Of a stretch of 64,000 nucleotides of DNA, positions 50,451 through 60,004 are shown in pieces. The first letter of the stretch is position 1; each line of letters begins with the position of its first letter. Origin of the DNA: Chitinophagaceae bacterium (lineage in GTDB: Bacteria > Bacteroidota > Bacteroidia > Chitinophagales > Chitinophagaceae); the NCBI GenBank assembly GCA_019745155.1, contig JAIETM010000005.1:62001-126000 (forward strand), in the 5' to 3' direction. The translations under genes and the position numbers were made by a program. A model generated the notes under the pieces. That model had not been told where the DNA came from. It worked only from the letters and a program-made list of their open reading frames with translations, and made no database searches.

Positions 50451-51833
50451 ATGATGAAGGCCTGTTCGCGCTTGCTTATTTTATTTCTGCCCATATTCGC
50501 GTTTGCGCAAAAAGAAACTGAGCTGGAGCAGGCCATGCGACGCTTTATGGCTGATGAGCAAATGCGTTATGGACAGGCGGGCTTGGTGGTAAAGGAATTA
50601 CAAACTGGTAAAGTGCTTATTGATTGGAATGGCTCTATTGGATTGGCGCCGGCTAGCACACAGAAGATATTTACTGCTGCAGCTGCCTTGGATCAGTTAG
50701 GTGCAGGTTTTCAATACAATACCTCGCTTTTGTATAATGGAAAGGTGCAGCAAGGAGTTTTGTATGGTGATTTGATCATACAGGGCAGTGGCGATCCCAG
50801 CTTTGGCAGTTGGCGATATGGGCAGACAAAAGCACAACAGTCATTAGATGCATGGGCAGATGCATTGAAGCAGTCCGGCATTAAAGAAGTGCGCGGACAA
50901 ATCAAAGCCAATCAGAACGGATTTACTCAACAGCCCTTGCCCGGAGGCTGGATATGGGATGATATGGGTAATTATTATGGTGCAGGAACCTGGGGAATCA
51001 ATTGGCGTGAAAATCAATTTGATTTGACGATGGTGCCGGGTGATAAAGTAGGCGATAGTCTAAAGGCTTGGCGTATGGAGCCGATGATTCCTTATCAGCA
51101 ATTTCAAAACTGTATTACAACTGGTAAGCCCGGCAGTGGTGATAATGGCTATATCTATTCACCGCCTTATGCAACGCATGGTTTTGCAGAAGGCACCATT
51201 CCCGCAGGTGTCAACAGTTTCACGATATCAGGTGCTATGCCCAATCCTTTTCAAGTGTTGCAACAAAGTTTGGAGCGCAGGCTTCAGGCGAGTGGTATTA
51301 CCATCAAGAATGAGGTGGTTGTGTCATCCAATAATCAACAGCAGGTTTTACATAGTTATGCATCACCAAACATGGATAGTTTGGTGTATTGGTTTATGCA
51401 GAAAAGTATCAACCTCTATGGAGAAGCTTTGCTGAAAACATTGGCTCAACAAAAGAATGGTATTGGTAGTACAGATGCTGGTGTGCAATGGATGCGGAAG
51501 TATTGGCAGGAGCGGGGTATCGATGCAAACGCTTTACGCATGGTAGATGGGAGTGGCTTGTCTCCATTGAACAGAAATACAGCTTTTACGCAGATAACCG
51601 CATTAGAATTTGCAAGCAGGCAAACCTGGTTTTCGGCTTATTTGCAGTCCTTTCACATCAATAATCAAATGCAATTGAAAAGCGGTACGATACAAGGTGC
51701 TAAAGCCTATTGTGGGTATTATACCAATACTTCAGGCACAACATACCTGATTTCATTTCTCGTCAATAATTACAACGGCAGCGCATCTGCCATTACACGT
51801 AAGATGTTTGCTGTGCTGGATGTATTAAAGTAA
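50451..51833 (+). CDS. dacB: D-alanyl-D-alanine carboxypeptidase/endopeptidase, PBP4 family
   Basis: About 460 residues with a signal peptide (CSRLLILFLPIFAFAQ). It is an S13-family peptidase trimming peptidoglycan in the periplasm: SxxK is STQK (68-71 from the second ATG at 50454), the SxN motif is SIN in KSINLYGEALLKTL, and KTG is KSGTIQGAKAYCGYY. Both ATGs (50451 and 50454) are possible starts. The frame extends far upstream over cinA, but this part is not coding. It may share a transcript with the DUF6526 gene just downstream. Confidence 0.93.
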   Translation: MMKACSRLLILFLPIFAFAQKETELEQAMRRFMADEQMRYGQAGLVVKELQTGKVLIDWNGSIGLAPASTQKIFTAAAALDQLGAGFQYNTSLLYNGKVQQGVLYGDLIIQGSGDPSFGSWRYGQTKAQQSLDAWADALKQSGIKEVRGQIKANQNGFTQQPLPGGWIWDDMGNYYGAGTWGINWRENQFDLTMVPGDKVGDSLKAWRMEPMIPYQQFQNCITTGKPGSGDNGYIYSPPYATHGFAEGTIPAGVNSFTISGAMPNPFQVLQQSLERRLQASGITIKNEVVVSSNNQQQVLHSYASPNMDSLVYWFMQKSINLYGEALLKTLAQQKNGIGSTDAGVQWMRKYWQERGIDANALRMVDGSGLSPLNRNTAFTQITALEFASRQTWFSAYLQSFHINNQMQLKSGTIQGAKAYCGYYTNTSGTTYLISFLVNNYNGSASAITRKMFAVLDVLK

Positions 51834-51857: not shown

Positions 51858-52289
51858 ATAAATAAAACACAAAATTTTCAGAACCACACGCGTCTTGTTC
51901 GTGGATGGCATTTTTACACTTTTGCCTTACTACTTGCAACCTTAATTGGTTCATTTGTGAACTTATATCATGCGGCTCCTGAAGTGCATTATAGTGCTGC
52001 TTTAATTTCCTGCATCACACTGGTCATGGGTGCTTTCTTCTGGTATATCCGTGCATTTGCATTGAAAGCACAGGATAGAGCTATTCGTGCAGAAGAAAAT
52101 TTTAGACATTTTATATTGACAGGCAAGCCGCTTCCAAGTGGTTTGCGACTGAGTCAGATTATTGCTTTGCGTTTTGCTTCAGATGCTGAATTGCCCGCTT
52201 TGGCTGAGCGTGCTATACAAGAAAAATTATCGAACAAGCAAATCAAGCAAGCTGTTCAACATTGGCGTCCTGATTACAATCGTGTTTAA
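51858..52289 (+). CDS. DUF6526 two-helix membrane protein with no canonical start
   Basis: About 143 residues. The recognisable family N-terminus NKTQNFQNHTRLVRGWHFYT and the first membrane span (FALLLATLIGSFVNLY) lie upstream of the first canonical start (GTG 51957). Reading back, the frame meets only the dacB stop (51831) with no ATG, GTG or TTG. The codon just before NKTQNF is ATA at 51858-51860, chosen here as the probable start or a mutated ATG. The second span is ALISCITLVMGAFFWYIRAF; a basic cytoplasmic tail follows. It is 24 bases after dacB and shares its stop region with the convergent thioesterase gene. Confidence 0.7.
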   Translation: MNKTQNFQNHTRLVRGWHFYTFALLLATLIGSFVNLYHAAPEVHYSAALISCITLVMGAFFWYIRAFALKAQDRAIRAEENFRHFILTGKPLPSGLRLSQIIALRFASDAELPALAERAIQEKLSNKQIKQAVQHWRPDYNRV

Positions 52290-52699
52290 GCATTGAAATA
52301 GGGTAAGAGCTTTGCCTTCAATACTTCCGGCATACTGGTTTTTTGTTTGGTGGCAGCATCAATGAAATAAAGCACCACCCTCCCCACTGTTAAGAGTTTT
52401 TCCGACTCATTATATACTTCCTGATGAAATTCGATTCGATGATCATCAGGAAGTTCTTTTAAGATGGTTCTGATAGTGAGCAATTCATCGTAGTGTGCTG
52501 GCCTCAGGTATTTGGCATGCCATTCTACAATCGGCATGACTACGCCCATCGCTTCCATGTCTTTATACGTAAAACCCAGCTGGCGAATGCTTTCTGTTCT
52601 GCCCACTTCAAAGTATTGGGCGTAATTGCCATGATACACTACGTCCATCTGATCTGTCTCTGCATATCTCACGCGAATCTTCGTTTCGTGTTGGAACAT
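52286..52699 (-). CDS. YbgC/4HBT-type acyl-CoA thioesterase
   Basis: 137 residues, hotdog fold. The motif RYAETDQMDVVYHGNYAQYF contains the Asp of the YbgC-like active site (the D-x-x-x-V-x-x-x-x-Y-x-x-Y pattern). The start ATG at 52699 is chosen over the longer frame because a full consensus promoter lies between 52717 and 52748. The stop codon overlaps that of the DUF6526 gene (TTAA at 52286-52289). The acyl substrate is unknown. Confidence 0.88.
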   Translation of the reverse strand: MFQHETKIRVRYAETDQMDVVYHGNYAQYFEVGRTESIRQLGFTYKDMEAMGVVMPIVEWHAKYLRPAHYDELLTIRTILKELPDDHRIEFHQEVYNESEKLLTVGRVVLYFIDAATKQKTSMPEVLKAKLLPYFNA

Positions 52700-52716
52700 C
52701 TTGCTTGCTTTGTTGA

Positions 52717-52748
52717 CAAAGTTAGCGGGGTGGGATGTTTTTCCACAA
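52717..52748 (-). promoter_or_regulatory. Promoter of the thioesterase gene
   Basis: On the minus strand: TTG (52748-52746), 21-base spacer, TAACTTTG (52724-52717), an exact consensus match. The leader to ATG 52699 is about 10-15 nt. Confidence 0.75.
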
Positions 52749-52854
52749 ATGCACGCCTGCTCAATATTCACGGAGTGCTAACAGTAACTTTAACTGGTTT
52801 TGCTTTTCCTTAAGAAAGAAAGCCAAATATTTGCCCAAATACCTACCCTTAACC

Positions 52855-55800
52855 ATGAAGCATTTCCTGACGATTGGTCTCCTGATGATATGCACTGGTA
52901 TGCTGACTGCACAGTCGACCTTGCAGTACAATGATCCAGATGCCAGATTCAAACAGGCAAGAGAACTCTTTCAAAAAGAACAATACAGCCTCGCTTGGCC
53001 GGTGTTCCGCAGCATGTACAACAATGGCATTCCACAGAGTACGATGCCTATTACCACTGCGGAAGAGGTGAAGTATTATTATATCATCAGCGGATTAAAA
53101 CTGCAAGACGCTGTAGCAGAACCTTTGGCCAAGGACTTTTTAGTGCAGGAACGCAACCTGCTTCGAAAAGAAATGATGGCTTTTGAACTGGGTGAATATT
53201 ACTACCGGAATAAACAATATGCTGAAGCCTTGGAGGCTTATGAAAAAGCAGGCATTGGTAATTTGACCAATCGACAGATTGCTGATATGAAATTCCATCA
53301 GGGCTATGCCTATTTTGCGCAATTGCAATTTGATAAGGCAAAGCCTTTGTTGAACACGGTTCGTCAGTTGCCCAAGGATCCGAATTACCCGGAAGCCAAT
53401 TATTACTATGCATTCATCGCTTTTAGCGAAAAGGATTATGATGCTGCTTTGCAGGGATTTCGTGTAGCAGAAAAATCGGCACCTTATAATACCATTGTGC
53501 CGTTCTATATCGCCGAGATTTATTATTTCACCGGCAGACGCGATGAAGCGATTGCTTATGTGGATCAATCACTGCGTGTAGGCGGACAGTATTACGATAA
53601 CCAGCTGCGCCAGTTGATGGGGCATATGTATTTTGAAAAGCGTATGTATCCACAGGCTCTACCTTATTTAGAGCAGTATGTACAGAAGCAGGATAAAGTG
53701 CGACGTGAAGATTTGTATGAACTGGCTTATTGTTACTATGAAGCCAAGAGTTGGTCCAAAGCCATTGAAGGATTGAAGCAAATTGGTGGTAAGGAAGATT
53801 CGCTTGGACAAAATTCTATGTACTTGCTGGCGGATGCTTATTTGAAAACAGGGGATAAGTCAAATGCTCGTAATGCCTTCTTGTTCTGTGCATCGAACAA
53901 TAGCAATCCATCGCAAAAAGAGATTTCATTATTCTCTTATGCCAAGCTTTCTTATGAGTTAGGTTATATGGATGTAGCGTTGAAGAGCTTTCAAGATTTC
54001 CTGAAGCAGTATCCTGCATCCAGCTTTATCAATGAAGCAAAAGAATTGGAGATAGCCGCATTGGCCAAGACAAGCAATTACAATGACGCATTGGTACGCT
54101 TTGAACAACTGACCAATCCGGGTGAAGATGTACGTAAACTGCATCCCGGTATTTTATATGGCAGAGCGGTTGAGTTGATTAACGACCAGCGCCTTGCTGA
54201 TGCAGCCCCTTTATTGGATAAAGTGTTAGAGCTGCCTTATAATAACCAACAATTGCCTTTCACTTTATTCTGGAAAGGAGAGTTAGCTTATAGAAACGGT
54301 AAGACAGAAGAAGCATTAGAGTTCTTTATGCGTTATCTGGCTAATCCGCAAATAAGCGGGGAAGTAAGTCCGGTGAATGCCAAGTATGCAGTTGGATATT
54401 GCTTGCTGAAGAAAGAGAGCTATAAAGCTGCAGCAGGCTTCTTTGATCAGATAGCAGCCAATCTACCATATAACGCCACTGCATTAGAGCAGGATGCTTA
54501 TCTGCGTTTGGCGGATTGTTATTTCATGAACAAGGATTACAAGCGCTCAGCAAAAATGTATGATGAGATATTGGCGCTGAACCAGAAAGGAGCCGATTAC
54601 GCTTTGTTTCAAAAAGCCATTATTGCTGGAGCGTTGAATAAGCCTTTGGAGAAGCTGAGTTTATTACAATCTGTAGAATCTCGTTTTCCAACTTCCGATC
54701 TTGTACCCGATGCTCAATTGGAAGTGGCCAATACGCATTTAGCAGAAGAGCGTTTCAATGAAGCCATCAATCCGCTGCAGAAATTATTGAAGAATAATAA
54801 AGCTGCAACCTTAAAGCCTCAGGTGTATTTGAAACTGGGTGTGGCTTATTTTAATCTGGATAAGAATGATGAGTCGCTCACACAGTTTCAGCAATTGGTG
54901 AAAGAATATCCCAATGCACAAGAGAGTGATGAAGCGGTGGAATATATCCGTAACATTTTTGTAGAAAAGCAGCAGCCTGGTGATTTCGTGAATTTCATGC
55001 GTCAGAATGGTAAAGCGGTTTCCTTTAGCGAAGAAGATTCGCTTACGTATAAATCTGCCATGCTTCGGTATGAAGCCAAAGACTTTGCGAGTGCAGAAGG
55101 CGGTTTTACGGATTACCTCAAGCGATTCCCTGAAGGTAAATACCAGATTGAAGCAGCTTATTTCGCTGCAGAAATTGCTGTATTCAATAAGCAGCCGAAC
55201 AATGCTTATCCTTTCTATCAGCAAGTAGCTGCTAAAGCGCCTAACCGTTATGCAGAACGCAGTGCATTGCAAGCTGCACGTATTGCTTATTTCGATTTGA
55301 AAGATTTTGCTGCTGCGGAGAAATACTTCGCACAGTTAAAAGCCATTGCTACCCAGCAGGAAAACAAATTGGAAGCCATGCGTGGTTTACTGCGTTGTCA
55401 GTATAAAGCACAGCAGTGGAATAATGCTTCTACCAATGCAGCTGAGCTTTTGATGGAAAAGGGGGCTGCTACTGATGATCGAATGATGGCCAATATGGTT
55501 TTGGCGAAGAATTATCAGTTGAATAGTCAGCCTAATGAAGCAGCCAATGCCTATAAAGCTGTAGTTGCGTTAGGTCGTTCAGAATATGCAGCTGAAGCAT
55601 CGTATCGCTTAGCGGAACTCTTGTATCAAAAAGGTAGTTATGCGGAAGCAGAGAAAGCAGCTTTTGAGGTGATCAAGAAAAATGGTTCCTATGCTTTCTG
55701 GGTAACCAGAAGTTATATTCTGCTGGGCGATGTGTATTTCAAACAAAAAGACCTGTTCAATGCGGAAGCTACGTTCAAAAGCGTAGCAGAGAATGCTTCA

Positions 55801-55884
55801 ATTGATGAATTACGTCAGGAAGCTACCCAAAAGCTGGGTATGGTGGTAGAAGAAAAGAACAGAGTCAACAAAGTAACCCAATAA
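52855..55884 (+). CDS. Large periplasmic TPR-repeat protein
   Basis: 1009 residues from the ATG at 52855, with a signal peptide (FLTIGLLMICTGMLTAQS). The rest is a superhelix of tandem TPR and Sel1-like repeats (YAEALEAYEKAGIGNLTNRQ, YDAALQGFRVAEKSAPYN, YPQALPYLEQYVQKQDKVRR, FAAAEKYFAQLKAIATQQ). The frame stays open to 52735 but the signal peptide fixes the start. The stop is seven bases before the barrel protein start, so they are translated from one mRNA. It is a likely scaffold between envelope partners encoded next to it. The specific function is not known. Confidence 0.85.
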   Translation: MKHFLTIGLLMICTGMLTAQSTLQYNDPDARFKQARELFQKEQYSLAWPVFRSMYNNGIPQSTMPITTAEEVKYYYIISGLKLQDAVAEPLAKDFLVQERNLLRKEMMAFELGEYYYRNKQYAEALEAYEKAGIGNLTNRQIADMKFHQGYAYFAQLQFDKAKPLLNTVRQLPKDPNYPEANYYYAFIAFSEKDYDAALQGFRVAEKSAPYNTIVPFYIAEIYYFTGRRDEAIAYVDQSLRVGGQYYDNQLRQLMGHMYFEKRMYPQALPYLEQYVQKQDKVRREDLYELAYCYYEAKSWSKAIEGLKQIGGKEDSLGQNSMYLLADAYLKTGDKSNARNAFLFCASNNSNPSQKEISLFSYAKLSYELGYMDVALKSFQDFLKQYPASSFINEAKELEIAALAKTSNYNDALVRFEQLTNPGEDVRKLHPGILYGRAVELINDQRLADAAPLLDKVLELPYNNQQLPFTLFWKGELAYRNGKTEEALEFFMRYLANPQISGEVSPVNAKYAVGYCLLKKESYKAAAGFFDQIAANLPYNATALEQDAYLRLADCYFMNKDYKRSAKMYDEILALNQKGADYALFQKAIIAGALNKPLEKLSLLQSVESRFPTSDLVPDAQLEVANTHLAEERFNEAINPLQKLLKNNKAATLKPQVYLKLGVAYFNLDKNDESLTQFQQLVKEYPNAQESDEAVEYIRNIFVEKQQPGDFVNFMRQNGKAVSFSEEDSLTYKSAMLRYEAKDFASAEGGFTDYLKRFPEGKYQIEAAYFAAEIAVFNKQPNNAYPFYQQVAAKAPNRYAERSALQAARIAYFDLKDFAAAEKYFAQLKAIATQQENKLEAMRGLLRCQYKAQQWNNASTNAAELLMEKGAATDDRMMANMVLAKNYQLNSQPNEAANAYKAVVALGRSEYAAEASYRLAELLYQKGSYAEAEKAAFEVIKKNGSYAFWVTRSYILLGDVYFKQKDLFNAEATFKSVAENASIDELRQEATQKLGMVVEEKNRVNKVTQ

Positions 55885-55891
55885 GCAACTC

Positions 55892-57688
55892 ATGCAAAGC
55901 ATTAAATATATCCCCTTCATCTTAGGTGCATTGCTTATGTTGGCCATGCCCGTTGATGCGCAAAAGCGTAGCAAGAAGCAAAAAGCTAAGACTAGTCAGA
56001 GTAGCAAAAAGAAAACCACTGCCAAGACGCAAAAGGGCAGTAAGAAGACTTTGTCTAAGCAAAAAACAAGTACTGATAAGCCTAAAGTGGTTGATCCTAC
56101 AACTACAGCGCTGGAGTTAAGTAAGGATACTACTGCTTCCAGAGTGGTGACCATTACTTCTGCGTTTAAGCCGTCTCTTCGTTCTGCTGCGAAAATCAAT
56201 TTCACAGCGGCAAGTGCAGTACAGGATACAACCAGAATTCCATTGGCCTATAAAGTACCTGCGCAGAATTTATTCTTTTCTTATCAGCCAGTACCCATCA
56301 AGCCTTTGGCGATGGATCCAGATTCTGCGATGAAGTGGGAGAATCATCAATACATCAAAGCAGGTTATGGTAATTATAGTACGCCTTTTGTAGATGCTGC
56401 ATTTGCTTTTGGTGATGGGCAAAAAGAAACATGGAATATCAACGCTGGTCATGTTGGTTCTAAGGGACAATTACCTTTTCAGCGTTTTAGCAAGACCAAC
56501 TTATCCTTCACCGGCATATTCCGTTCGGCGGATAAGCATGAATGGACAACCCGTGCTTTCTGGAATAATCAGATTCAGTATAAATACGGCTTCCTACCTA
56601 ATAGCCTCAATTTTGTTGATACAGACCTGAAGCAGTCCTTCAATACAACTGGTATTGAACTGGGTTTGCAAAATAAAGAAGCAGGGGAGAATGGCTTTTT
56701 ATATAAGCCCCAGTTTGCTTTCACTTATTTCAGTGATAATCGTGCAGCCAGAGAAGTGGATGTGGTGTTAAAAGCGCCTTTTCAAAAACGATTGAGTAAG
56801 TTCATCAGTTTTGATTTTAATGCCGTGGCCGATATCACACGGTTAACCAATAATGCGGTGAAGAACCTGGGTAACAATCTCTATTATATTGATCCCGCAT
56901 TGTTATTGGCTACCAATAGCCTGAAACTGCATTTGGGATTTGTGCCTAGTTGGGATAATGCGCAATTCTATCTGCTGCCTGATATTACTGCTGAAGCCAG
57001 TATCAAAGGCGATCAGTTGGTGGTGATGGCAGGGTGGCAGGGTTACTATCAAAAGAATACTTATCGCTCACTGGCTAATGTCAATCCATTTATTTGGTCT
57101 GAAGTCATTAATCAATTACGCAATACGCGTATCATGGAGCAGTATGCCGGCTTCAAAGGATCAACTGGCAAGCATCTAACCTATAATGCCAAGTTAGCTT
57201 TCTTGCGCTTGTATAACCAGCCACTTTTCCTGAATGATGGACTTGGCCGTAAGGATTTCCGTGTATTGTACGATGGTAGTATGGATGTGTTACGCCTGAA
57301 GGCAGAATTAAACTATCGTGTACAGGAGAAATTCAATATCGGCGCAGCTATGCAATACCAGCAGTTTACAAGAACAACAGCCCCAAAAGCTTTTGGTCTG
57401 TTGCCCTTTGAAGTAAATGGACATCTGCGCTGGCAGGTGCTGAAAGACCTGCATGTAAAAGCAGATGCTTTCTTTTTCGATGGGGCATTTTACCAGACAG
57501 CAACTGGTGAGAACAGGAAGCAATCCTTTGCCACAGATGTGAATCTGGGCTTGGAATTTAAAGTAAAGCCGAAACTGTCTGTATGGTTGCAGATGAACAA
57601 TATGCTCAACAGCCGTTACCAGCGTTGGAACCAATATGAAGTATTGGGCTTCAATGTTCTCGGAGGTGTTGTATATTCGTTCCGGTAA
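55892..57688 (+). CDS. Outer-membrane beta-barrel protein with Lys-rich N-terminal tether
   Basis: 598 residues. After a signal peptide (FILGALLMLAMPVDAQ) comes a 40-residue stretch of mostly Lys, Ser, Thr and Gln (about 25-67: KRSKKQKAKTSQSSKKKTTA and on), then a short conserved segment (RVVTITSAFKPSLRSAAKIN) and a long barrel of amphipathic strands to the C-terminus (LNSRYQRWNQYEVLGFNVLG, ending VVYSFR), like the end of TonB-dependent receptors. It lacks a recognisable plug domain, so active transport is not claimed. It is directly coupled with the TPR gene upstream and 14 bases before the HU-CCDC81-like gene. Confidence 0.75.
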   Translation: MQSIKYIPFILGALLMLAMPVDAQKRSKKQKAKTSQSSKKKTTAKTQKGSKKTLSKQKTSTDKPKVVDPTTTALELSKDTTASRVVTITSAFKPSLRSAAKINFTAASAVQDTTRIPLAYKVPAQNLFFSYQPVPIKPLAMDPDSAMKWENHQYIKAGYGNYSTPFVDAAFAFGDGQKETWNINAGHVGSKGQLPFQRFSKTNLSFTGIFRSADKHEWTTRAFWNNQIQYKYGFLPNSLNFVDTDLKQSFNTTGIELGLQNKEAGENGFLYKPQFAFTYFSDNRAAREVDVVLKAPFQKRLSKFISFDFNAVADITRLTNNAVKNLGNNLYYIDPALLLATNSLKLHLGFVPSWDNAQFYLLPDITAEASIKGDQLVVMAGWQGYYQKNTYRSLANVNPFIWSEVINQLRNTRIMEQYAGFKGSTGKHLTYNAKLAFLRLYNQPLFLNDGLGRKDFRVLYDGSMDVLRLKAELNYRVQEKFNIGAAMQYQQFTRTTAPKAFGLLPFEVNGHLRWQVLKDLHVKADAFFFDGAFYQTATGENRKQSFATDVNLGLEFKVKPKLSVWLQMNNMLNSRYQRWNQYEVLGFNVLGGVVYSFR

Positions 57689-57702
57689 AACCTCCTGCAA
57701 CA

Positions 57703-58296
57703 ATGCAAGATATCCTGTATAAGTACCTCATTCTCAACCAAAGGCTTCAGTTGCCCAGTATTGGCAGTTTTTCTATTGATACCCTGCCTGCTGAGATCGA
57801 CAAAGCCAATGGCTTATTGCATGCACCTACACAGGTGATTCGTTATCGCCAGGGTGAAGCTGCTGCAGACAGGCATTTTATAAGTTTTGTTGCTAAGGAA
57901 ACTGGTTTGGATGAAGAGGACGCTGTTCGTGAGTTCAATGATTATATCACGAGATTGCAGCATGAGTCTGGTACCAATCATGGTGTTGAAATTCCAGGCA
58001 TGGGTACATTGAAGAAAGAAACCAACGGACATTATCTTTTTCTATCTGATCGTTCTGTAAATGAAATGTATCCACAGTTAAAGCTCAGTGGCAATTTTGA
58101 AGTACAGCATGCTTACTACCGATTAGATAAACCTACAGCACACCGTAAGATTGAAAATGAAGAAGAGGCTATCAAGGAATTAGAGGTAAACGAAGAAGAG
58201 TTGATTGAATCAAAAGAAGAGGCCGATTATTGGTGGGTATATGTGATGATCATTCTTTTATTAGGTCTTGGCGCCTTGCTCTTTTATTACGTTTAA
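57703..58296 (+). CDS. Tail-anchored HU-CCDC81-like protein
   Basis: 197 residues. Two HU-like lobes of the prokaryotic CCDC81 type: LYKYLILNQRLQLPSIGSFS through about 65, then FISFVAKETGLDEEDAVREF, and VEIPGMGTLKKETNGHYLFL. An acidic linker (ENEEEAIKELEVNEEELIES) leads to one C-terminal membrane span, WWVYVMIILLLGLGALLFYYV, with no residue beyond it. In Flavobacteria the family typically carries a periplasmic SPOR domain after the span; none is present here. The bulk would be cytoplasmic. Confidence 0.7.
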   Translation: MQDILYKYLILNQRLQLPSIGSFSIDTLPAEIDKANGLLHAPTQVIRYRQGEAAADRHFISFVAKETGLDEEDAVREFNDYITRLQHESGTNHGVEIPGMGTLKKETNGHYLFLSDRSVNEMYPQLKLSGNFEVQHAYYRLDKPTAHRKIENEEEAIKELEVNEEELIESKEEADYWWVYVMIILLLGLGALLFYYV

Positions 58297-58304
58297 AACA
58301 GGCT

Positions 58305-59201
58305 ATGCAGCGTATTCTTTATAACCAGTGCCCAGCCTGTGGCAGCAACAACATACATCATCAGTTACATGCAACAGATCATACAGTAAGCAAAGAAGCT
58401 TATCAGATATGGCATTGCAATGATTGTACACTGCGTTTTACGCAGGATATTCCAACGCTGAATGAAATAGGTAAGTATTATCAGTCGCAGGATTATATCT
58501 CACATTCTGATACCCAAAAAGGGCTAGTTAATAAGCTCTACCACCTTGTTCGTAATTATACACTAGGTACCAAACTCAGACTGATCAAGAAAGTAACGCG
58601 TAAAGAAAGCGGACAATTACTTGATATAGGCGCAGGCACCGGTGCTTTTCTACACACCATGCAAGCTGCTGGTTGGCAGGCAACGGGATTAGAGCCTGAT
58701 GAAACTGCACGTCAGGTAGCTAAAGCGCGTTATCAGACTGATCTTCTAACGCCTGATTACGTATATACGCTCGCAGATGGGAAGTACGATGCTATCACAC
58801 TATGGCATGTTTTAGAGCATGTGCATGATTTGCAGGGCTATTTTCAGCGTTTTGTTGCCTTACTCAAACATGATGGTCGCCTCATTATTGCTGTGCCCAA
58901 CTATACCAGTTATGATGCGGCTTATTATAAGTCGGAATGGGCCGCATATGATGTGCCCAGACATTTATACCATTTCTCGCCAAAGAGTATGGAATTACTC
59001 GCTGCCAAACATGGTTTTGTGGTGCAAGCCATCAAGCCCATGTGGTTTGATAGTTTCTATGTGAGTATGCTTAGCGAGAAATATCGCAACGGGGCTGTAT
59101 TATATGTAGCAGCAGTCTTAATGGGACTAATGTCGAACATGGTTGCTCTTTTCAAAAAGCATCGCTGCAGTTCGCAAATCTATGTGTTGAAGAAAGCTTA
59201 G
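58305..59201 (+). CDS. SAM-dependent methyltransferase with N-terminal zinc ribbon
   Basis: 298 residues from the ATG at 58305 (the longer frame overlaps the upstream gene). An N-terminal zinc ribbon, NQCPACGSNN and WHCNDCTLRF, precedes a class I methyltransferase domain: SAM-binding LLDIGAGTGAFLHTMQAAGW, the post-I LEPDETARQVAK, and ITLWHVLEHVHDL. The type (Methyltransf_23 plus zinc ribbon) is common in Bacteroidota beside surface-polysaccharide or envelope genes; the acceptor is unknown. It begins eight bases after the HU-CCDC81-like gene. The stop overlaps the stop of the convergent cyclotransferase gene. Confidence 0.85.
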   Translation: MQRILYNQCPACGSNNIHHQLHATDHTVSKEAYQIWHCNDCTLRFTQDIPTLNEIGKYYQSQDYISHSDTQKGLVNKLYHLVRNYTLGTKLRLIKKVTRKESGQLLDIGAGTGAFLHTMQAAGWQATGLEPDETARQVAKARYQTDLLTPDYVYTLADGKYDAITLWHVLEHVHDLQGYFQRFVALLKHDGRLIIAVPNYTSYDAAYYKSEWAAYDVPRHLYHFSPKSMELLAAKHGFVVQAIKPMWFDSFYVSMLSEKYRNGAVLYVAAVLMGLMSNMVALFKKHRCSSQIYVLKKA

Positions 59202-60004
59202 TTCAGCTTCAGTGCGAATAAGGCAGGCCACTTTTTTCCAGTAACATAGAGCACTTGTTTACCACTGTCATAAGCAATACCATTTAGATAGTCTCTGTTA
59301 GGGTAGATGGGTTGATTGTTTTTTTCCAGAATATTACTCAAGTCTAATTGAGCAGTTACTGCACCGCTAGCAGTATCAATACGCACAATGTGATCTGTTT
59401 GATACACGTTCGCATACAATGCGCCATTTACCAACTCGGGTTCATTTAAGTTAGCGAGAGGCCCGTTATTGTCATATACACTCAATGTCTTTTCAATCTG
59501 TAAATTTTCCGGATTTACAAAGTACACATTATTAGAGCCTGTAGTGATGATGAGCTGCTTACCATTATTGGATAAACCCCAGCCTTCGTATGCCCAATCC
59601 AGTTCTTTGATTTTTTTGAAGGTCTTTAGCTCATACACAAATACTTTATGATTCTGCCAAGTGAGCTGGTAGATTTTATTATTGAATACTGTAATACCCT
59701 CGCCAAAGTATTCTTTTGCTAAATCGATTCTCTGTAATGTTTTGCTGGAACTCAACTCGGCTTTACGTAGAAAGCTTTCACCATTCAGACCTGTGCCTTC
59801 GTATAAAAAGCCATTATGAAATTCTAATCCCTGTGTATATGCTGCAGTGTCATGCGGATATACGTTTACAATCGTGTAAGGTAGATTGGCCGGTATATTG
59901 ATAGTAGTCGTAATTTCTGCACTACTATCCGTGATATTTGTCTCGTTGTTTTTGCAAGCATTCATTACCAGTATGGTAAATATGCTCCATAAAATGCGCT
60001 TCAT
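59198..60004 (-). CDS. Glutaminyl-peptide cyclotransferase
   Basis: 268 residues with a lipoprotein-like signal (VMNACKNN). The five-bladed-propeller glutamine cyclotransferase family is indicated by YPHDTAAYTQGLEFHNGFLYEGTGLNGES, ITVFNNKIYQLTWQNHKVFVY, WAYEGWGLSNNGKQLI, and YPNRDYLNGIAYDSGKQVLYVTGKKWPALF. It converts N-terminal Gln of exported proteins to pyroglutamate, a frequent Bacteroidota envelope modification following signal peptidase cuts before Gln. Several predicted secreted proteins here have mature ends starting with Gln. Confidence 0.9.
   Translation of the reverse strand: MKRILWSIFTILVMNACKNNETNITDSSAEITTTINIPANLPYTIVNVYPHDTAAYTQGLEFHNGFLYEGTGLNGESFLRKAELSSSKTLQRIDLAKEYFGEGITVFNNKIYQLTWQNHKVFVYELKTFKKIKELDWAYEGWGLSNNGKQLIITTGSNNVYFVNPENLQIEKTLSVYDNNGPLANLNEPELVNGALYANVYQTDHIVRIDTASGAVTAQLDLSNILEKNNQPIYPNRDYLNGIAYDSGKQVLYVTGKKWPALFALKLN

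Follow-up and report, generated by a model that had tools for sequence, protein, structure and literature searches.

Three linked envelope genes of Bacteroidota as candidate parts of a Tol-like system, seen from a split locus in a Chitinophagaceae bacterium

Four genes that follow one another almost without interruption raise the question of whether their products work together and, if so, which of them do. Such a run lies in a 64,000-nucleotide stretch of DNA from a Chitinophagaceae bacterium (contig JAIETM010000005.1, positions 62,001 to 126,000), the whole of which is here called the window. The open reading frame (ORF) listing of the window places four ORFs on the + strand with intergenic gaps of 7, 14 and 8 bases, encoding a 1009-residue tetratricopeptide repeat (TPR) protein (52855..55884), a 598-residue outer-membrane barrel (55892..57688), a 197-residue protein with tandem HU-CCDC81-like domains and a C-terminal membrane anchor (57703..58296) and a 298-residue zinc-ribbon class I methyltransferase (58305..59201). 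An initial annotation had described this spacing correctly and had proposed a trans-envelope machine built from all four products. Our comparisons lead to a different grouping. The evidence tilts modestly towards the TPR protein, the plugless barrel and the HU(-SPOR) membrane protein being parts of a Bacteroidota-type Tol-like envelope system, and we read the window locus as a split, reduced copy of this candidate constriction system. In many lineages the neighbours are a SPOR protein, TolQ, TolR and TolA, which lay beyond the view of that annotation.

The TPR–barrel pair and the motor genes that follow it

Our search for the barrel covered 148 genomes of the phylum, 37 of them from the window's class. 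A single barrel sequence used as query found matches in 47, including all 37 of the same class, and two profiles (A1 and A3) gave full-length or nearly full-length matches in 107. About 20 kb (less at contig ends) was taken around 85 barrels, 35 from the class and 50 from other classes, representing 24 families; neighbouring genes were scored with profiles built from the loci, and the counts are threshold-dependent and probably low for distant families. The TPR gene lies directly upstream of the barrel gene in 66 of the 85 loci (34/35 in the class, 32/50 elsewhere), and the loci without this arrangement are all 18 of families f19 and f21 and one f5 locus. Conserved adjacency, which the initial annotation had suggested as a check, thus holds for the TPR–barrel pair well beyond the window genome. 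Chance neighbourhood as an account of the four-gene run is rejected, given a pair found in 66 of 85 loci and 24 families.

Downstream of the barrel, on the same strand and within 6–7 kb, TolQ/TolR/TolA-like genes occur in 58 of the 85 loci and in 16 of the 24 families: in 10 of 35 class loci versus 48 of 50 from other classes, with a TolA/TonB-like gene scored in 10 of the 35 and 44 of the 50, respectively. Of the 58 motor-linked loci, 39 have a SPOR protein between the barrel and the motor genes, and 25 have HU domains. TolQ, TolR and TolA were all scored in 42 of the 85 loci, together with the TPR gene in 24, and with both TPR and SPOR genes in 18. Three of the four window genes are members of an ancient set which, in many bacteria of the phylum, shares one run with a proton-driven envelope motor. 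The set may therefore do for this phylum what is done elsewhere by the system that draws the outer membrane in at division, and the motor and SPOR genes linked to it in other lineages make it likely that the products assemble across the envelope.

By Pfam, the motor proteins that were tested belong to the MotA_ExbB and ExbD families. For the operon TolQ-like proteins, tolQ is the best NCBIfam model, yet their scores lie at 65–102 bits against a cut-off of 221. Models for TolR and ExbD gave mixed results under their cut-offs, the TolR of locus L057 being slightly better matched by an ExbD model; the TolA-like protein of L066 exceeds the cut-off of TIGR01352, and that of L057 has no Pfam match. 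In six f22 loci (L072, L105, L112, L113, L117 and L120; 6/6) a TolA-like gene follows the barrel with no TolQ or TolR scored nearby, and G059, the single f22 genome searched with our TolQ profile, gave only an ExbB-level match of 112 bits.

The fuller arrangement can be seen in named organisms. TolQ loci were ranked by how close their TolQ is to one from Pedobacter; of the best 80, 14 have the barrel upstream (Pedobacter, Daejeonella, Mucilaginibacter, Sphingobacterium, Hymenobacter and two other Bacteroidetes), and the whole run is present in Pedobacter jejuensis (L122), Mucilaginibacter aquatilis (L129), Sphingobacterium allocomposti (L132) and Hymenobacter roseosalivarius (L135). The Hymenobacter daecheongensis locus (L136) was counted as being without a barrel; the wrong strand was called there at the barrel and TolQ positions, and TPR, HU/SPOR and TolA genes are visible. 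TolQ is followed by TolA-like genes in 54 of these 80 loci and by FolC in 31. In L191, a Bacteroidales contig, two TolQ–TolR pairs stand adjacent and divergent.

Other lineages separate the parts. The initial annotation had held that TPR and barrel families occurring widely without an HU-CCDC81 partner would speak against its proposal. This separation is seen in families f2, f4, f5, f6 and f7, where our profiles detect no HU, SPOR or motor gene next to the pair in any of 19 TPR–barrel loci (HU-SPOR genes elsewhere in these genomes were not searched for), and it is not seen in the window's family, where the HU gene follows in 48 of 50 loci. The split-locus genomes tested still have TolQ: TolQ-profile matches of at least 197 bits occur in 19 of the 20 genomes searched, with a TolA-like gene within 1.5 kb in 15 of the 19, the other four being the four f1 genomes. 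Ordinary ExbB paralogues reach at most 189 bits on this profile, which leaves a narrow gap to 197 at the narrowest point; the flanks of the 11 ExbB paralogue loci examined (L275–L285) hold two ExbD-like genes and nothing that matches the TolA profile, and two f2 TolQ loci have two TolR-like genes and TolA. Of 13 f5 loci, 11 have an FtsE-like gene that diverges from the TPR gene, with one gene intervening in L047; the L047 product, the only one tested, scores 242 bits against the FtsE cut-off of 265, its best match among all models. We set aside an FtsE-profile match in L121, because its opening residues look like those of an LptB-type ABC protein.

Distribution relative to TolB

Full-length TolB, as defined by TIGR02800, was found in 30 of the 148 genomes, all of them in family f15, with 28 scoring over the cut-off and two just under it. 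Every other genome gives partial propeller matches to this model, which we did not take for TolB. Not one of these 30 genomes has a full-length barrel, even with a broader profile, and 107 of the remaining 118 do; within the sample, the barrel and full-length TolB do not overlap. Matches confined to the C-terminal part of the barrel profile (f15 frames of ~200–900 residues, mostly >620) were left out of the barrel counts, and we take those in f15 for TonB-dependent transporters, which show the same C-terminal cross-match. The FMO protein, a marker of green sulfur bacteria, is present in all 30 f15 genomes, and also in G005 and G079, two of the 11 genomes with neither TolB nor barrel. We infer that f15 is the Chlorobiaceae, that is, green sulfur bacteria. 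The TolB_N domain (PF04052) was detected in 7 of the 148 genomes and in 0 of the 37 from the same class; this family is too insensitive here, since it misses 26 of the 30 f15 genomes that TIGR02800 finds. Pal (OmpA-like) was absent from the eight window proteins scanned with Pfam, the genomes not having been searched with PF00691 or TIGR02802.

Several observations weigh against a Tol-like reading of the gene set. The TolB contrast comes from one clade and amounts to nearly one evolutionary event, not 30 independent ones, and the 11 of 148 genomes with neither TolB nor barrel comprise entire families (4/4 in f10, 2/2 in f13 and 4/4 in f26) and one of the two f17 genomes. PF04052 scores over its cut-off in the barrel genomes G085 and G135 (frames of ~1040–1090 residues), under it in G047, and over it in the control genome of Bacteroides ihuae; given TolB_N matches in barrel genomes, TolB-related proteins are not wholly absent. 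Within the named set, 51 of the best 80 TolQ loci, with at least 6 kb upstream available, show no barrel. The window genome has its one operon-type TolQ–TolR pair on another contig, and none of its three TonB_C proteins matches the operon TolA profiles. Its TonB-system ExbB scores 92.6 on the same NCBIfam TolQ model as the operon proteins; the model thus fails to part TolQ from ExbB here, and the name TolQ rests on gene context. Finally, 25 of the 35 class loci have no scored motor gene near the barrel. This last count also favours a passive tether between outer membrane and peptidoglycan, formed by the TPR protein and the barrel, with motor genes nearby merely through the clustering of envelope genes. 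We consider such a tether improbable, as motor genes after the barrel in 48 of 50 loci from other classes are too constant for loose clustering.

The window proteins and their family

No Pfam family scores above cut-off for the barrel protein. It has a signal-like start and a lysine-rich tether, and its AlphaFold2 model (40 aligned sequences; mean predicted local distance difference test score, pLDDT, 78.9; barrel blocks mostly >90) predicts disorder to about residue 150, with pLDDT <50 at residues 18–104 and 115–150, and a barrel from about residue 151. The best solved match is BtuB (Foldseek E 2.1e-18; against 3m8b, Z 23.1, root-mean-square deviation 3.5, 416 residues aligned); other TonB-dependent transporters such as FhuA are matched too. 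In 12 transporter sequences the family profile also hits the C-terminal part. A plug family was not found in the protein by Pfam at E up to 1. The structural alignments begin at residues 115–129 of the model, in a low-confidence region, and by these alignments a plug remnant is possible. According to the model, then, the window protein is a TonB-dependent-transporter-type barrel without a recognised plug. Its identification as an ordinary TonB-dependent transporter was rejected, the plug being undetected by Pfam and the N-terminus disordered in the model. The initial annotation had called it a barrel with a charged tether: the barrel is borne out by the model and the tether by the window protein itself (17 K/R versus 3 D/E in residues 25–75), but the lysine-rich tether is missing in most of the 39 relatives aligned and is not a family trait. 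In three genomes of the window's family (G150, G165 and G181) the barrel match contains in-frame stops, which may reflect pseudogenes, indels or sequencing errors.

This fold invites an explanation in terms of energised transport, with the TolA-like protein acting as a TonB that drives the transporter-type barrel for uptake or release and the TPR protein as its periplasmic partner. Besides the fold and the cross-matching of transporter C-termini, it could appeal to the motor genes, which are relatives of ExbB, ExbD and TonB in a setting where the TolQ model cannot part TolQ from ExbB. We regard it as quite unlikely: Pfam finds no plug domain and the N-terminus is disordered, the occurrence of the family in 107 of 148 genomes is wider than expected for one substrate, and a SPOR partner, as seen in 39 of the 58 loci with motor genes, would be odd for uptake.

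The earliest possible start of the TPR ORF is at 52735, and the start at 52855 yields a signal-like N-terminus; the protein is predicted to be periplasmic, with CpoB/YbgF-like repeats. It matches PF13432 in nine stretches (3.4e-37) and TIGR02795 at 150 bits (cut-off 90.1), the latter score being driven by ten repeat stretches, and reaches 48 bits with the CpoB model NF008068, against a cut-off of 383. With the BamD model the match is at repeat level, 81.5 bits (cut-off 81.4), and with the PorW/SprE model of type IX secretion, NF052312, 74.1 bits do not reach the cut-off of 250. Membership of PorW/SprE was rejected on that score. Large periplasmic TPR proteins are known to serve outer-membrane machines, and the repeat-level matches to PorW/SprE and BamD would suit a module for outer-membrane assembly or secretion, in which the TPR protein is a scaffold for the barrel in protein, lipid or glycan export or in type IX secretion and the TolQ-like motor powers export and not division. 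With the SPOR domains and the FtsE-like and YbgC neighbours pointing to the septum and to Tol, and PorW/SprE far under its cut-off, such a module seems to us unlikely.

The third protein was described initially as tail-anchored and HU-CCDC81-like. The anchor is borne out by a hydrophobic stretch that runs from about residue 178 to the end, and the AlphaFold2 model (mean pLDDT 84.7) shows two HU-like domains, then a linker of low confidence and helices, with one more helix at the terminus. The Pfam scores are under cut-off (33.8 bits against 35 for HU-CCDC81_bac_2, 14.9 against 26 for HU-CCDC81_bac_1), and a PF18174 search of the window's own genome gave no match; the assignment is nonetheless supported by the model and by relatives. 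That of L046 has HU-CCDC81 over both Pfam cut-offs plus SPOR over its cut-off, those of L075 and L098 combine SPOR over the cut-off with weak HU-like matches, and those of L066 and L057 have, respectively, SPOR alone over the cut-off and 19.5 bits against the SPOR cut-off of 21. In the window protein, Pfam finds no SPOR domain and the chain stops at the anchor; it looks like a shortened HU-SPOR protein that lacks the periplasmic SPOR part. Foldseek returned nothing for the model at E 0.001 or better. In VIA-align, both HU-like domains match a sea-urchin sperm microtubule protein (8snb_1K, Z 7.1), a Tetrahymena microtubule inner protein (8v3l_A, Z 6.9) and a Mycoplasma gliding-machinery protein (Z 6.9), and bacterial HU, matching the second domain at Z ~6, ranks below these; all are weak matches (Z <8). 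We favour protein docking as the role of these domains, DNA binding being also possible. Further HU-related ORFs were seen in other loci. Between the barrel and HU-SPOR genes of the f21 loci L067 (8810–9061, − strand) and L085 lies an ORF of 83–86 residues with an HU-profile match, which in L067 exceeds the Pfam cut-off for Bac_DNA_binding, and more copies are suggested by gaps of ~200 bases in the corresponding position of other f21 loci; L034 (747–1658, − strand) encodes a second HU-profile protein on the same 20-kb stretch as the main one.

Sampling within the window's own family shows which genes travel together. The barrel occurs in 58 of 60 genomes drawn from it; 56 of these 58 loci (two touching contig ends were left out) and two from the 148-genome search make up 58 family loci, of which 50 are usable, with at least 3.3 kb upstream and at least 2.6 kb downstream. 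In these 50, the adjacent TPR gene is present in 49, the downstream HU gene in 48, the methyltransferase gene in 23 and the full four-gene run in 21. The HU protein is tail-anchored, with <40 residues after the membrane segment, in 34, and has at least 100 residues after it in 14, 11 of which match SPOR profiles. A joint trans-envelope machine therefore finds backing for three of its four proposed members, the TPR–barrel pair (66 of 85 loci across the phylum) and, in the family, TPR and HU, and not for the methyltransferase. That enzyme is what it was first taken to be (Methyltransf_23, 2.3e-27; cysteines at 9, 12, 38 and 41), with an additional hydrophobic stretch near residue 265 that had gone unremarked. 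Its gene accompanies the tail-anchored HU form in 21 of 34 loci versus 2 of 14 for the long form. As a core member it was rejected, being downstream in just 23 of 50 family loci, and it is probably a lineage-specific neighbour. A four-protein machine that includes it, as first proposed, accords with the full run in 21 of the 50 loci; with no such methyltransferase scored in 27, and with one from the same loose cluster found downstream outside the family, among the loci inspected, only in L042, L047 and L052 of f5, two or three genes off and on the other strand, we consider that machine very improbable.

A YbgC-profile gene lies 3.1–5.1 kb upstream of the barrel in 31 of the 50 family loci. In the window it is a YbgC/FadM-type acyl-CoA thioesterase gene (52286..52771, − strand), divergent from the TPR gene, with its true start probably near 52696; the product scores 100 bits with TIGR00051 (cut-off 68.7) and 80.9 bits with the tol-pal-associated model TIGR02799, under the cut-off of 141.35. 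Past it, Pfam and NCBIfam identify a DUF6526 gene and the gene of a D-Ala-D-Ala carboxypeptidase of the PBP4 family (50475..51833, + strand; TIGR00666, 205.9 bits, cut-off 107.8), which we count as neighbourhood only. On the other side, convergent with the methyltransferase gene, 59198–60004 (− strand) encodes a glutamine cyclotransferase family protein with a relative at the same place in L032 and L035. Elsewhere in the window genome, TolQ matches the TolQ profile at 5e-83, versus 1e-31 for the TonB-system ExbB, and the one SPOR match is a 139-residue protein with a signal-like start.

Known relatives and a possible mechanism

The known system closest in outline is Tol-Pal (TolQ-TolR-TolA-TolB-Pal-CpoB, with YbgC). 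The Bacteroidota loci resemble it in their TolQ/TolR/TolA-type motor genes, in a periplasmic TPR protein with CpoB-like repeats, in having an outer-membrane component, and in the nearby YbgC gene of the window's family. They differ from it in that the barrel genomes are without full-length TolB and their TolQ scores far under the TolQ cut-off, in that the outer-membrane component is a barrel, and in the addition of a SPOR/HU membrane protein. The set may work like Tol-Pal, but because full-length TolB does not accompany it we do not class it as Tol-Pal. With TonB-ExbB-ExbD and TonB-dependent transporters it shares the motor family and the barrel fold of BtuB and FhuA, and it differs from them in having no recognised plug and in its TPR and SPOR partners. 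Bacteroidetes proteins that combine HU-CCDC81 with SPOR were reportedly described by Burroughs and colleagues in 2017; the HU-CCDC81 pair and SPOR domain of L046 conform to that type, in contrast to the window protein, which stops at its membrane anchor. What is new is the linkage of such proteins to TPR, barrel and TolQRA genes.

A 2025 survey states that tol-pal loci are not identifiable in Bacteroidetes and that one is documented in Chlorobiota (PMC12204202). The same survey proposes PorE, a lipoprotein with TPR, propeller, carboxypeptidase-like and Pal-like parts, as a candidate Pal-like tether of Bacteroidetes (PMC12204202). PorE and our candidate set are both put forward to fill the place of the missing tol-pal locus; the set is distinct from PorE and has motor genes of its own. 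In the open literature searched for a TPR–barrel–HU/SPOR–TolQRA gene set, we recognised no description of one.

We envisage the products as a working complex that would be coupled to an energy source and would have a role in division or outer-membrane constriction. In the fuller form, as in Pedobacter, Mucilaginibacter, Sphingobacterium, Hymenobacter and loci of other classes, one run encodes the TPR protein, the barrel, an HU-SPOR or SPOR protein, TolQ, TolR and TolA. The SPOR domain would set the membrane protein on septal peptidoglycan and the HU domains would provide a cytoplasmic docking platform; TolQ–TolR, powered by the proton gradient, would move TolA, which may pull on the barrel directly or via the TPR protein, so that the outer membrane would be drawn in behind the constricting wall. 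Elsewhere the same job falls to TolB, Pal and CpoB. The window's family keeps the TPR, barrel and HU genes together, with SPOR missing in many members, TolQ and TolR encoded elsewhere and TolA not recognised.

On a broader scale we entertain, at rather less than an even chance, that a proton-driven constriction machine made of an HU platform, a SPOR-anchored protein, TolQRA, a giant TPR protein and a plugless barrel arose or was kept at the base of the phylum, that it replaces TolB–Pal in nearly all Bacteroidota except green sulfur bacteria, and that it might tie the nucleoid or the divisome to outer-membrane constriction. For the constriction and stabilisation of the outer membrane in Bacteroidota a specific candidate gene set can now be named, one that combines motor genes with a domain that binds the wall and a barrel in the outer membrane.

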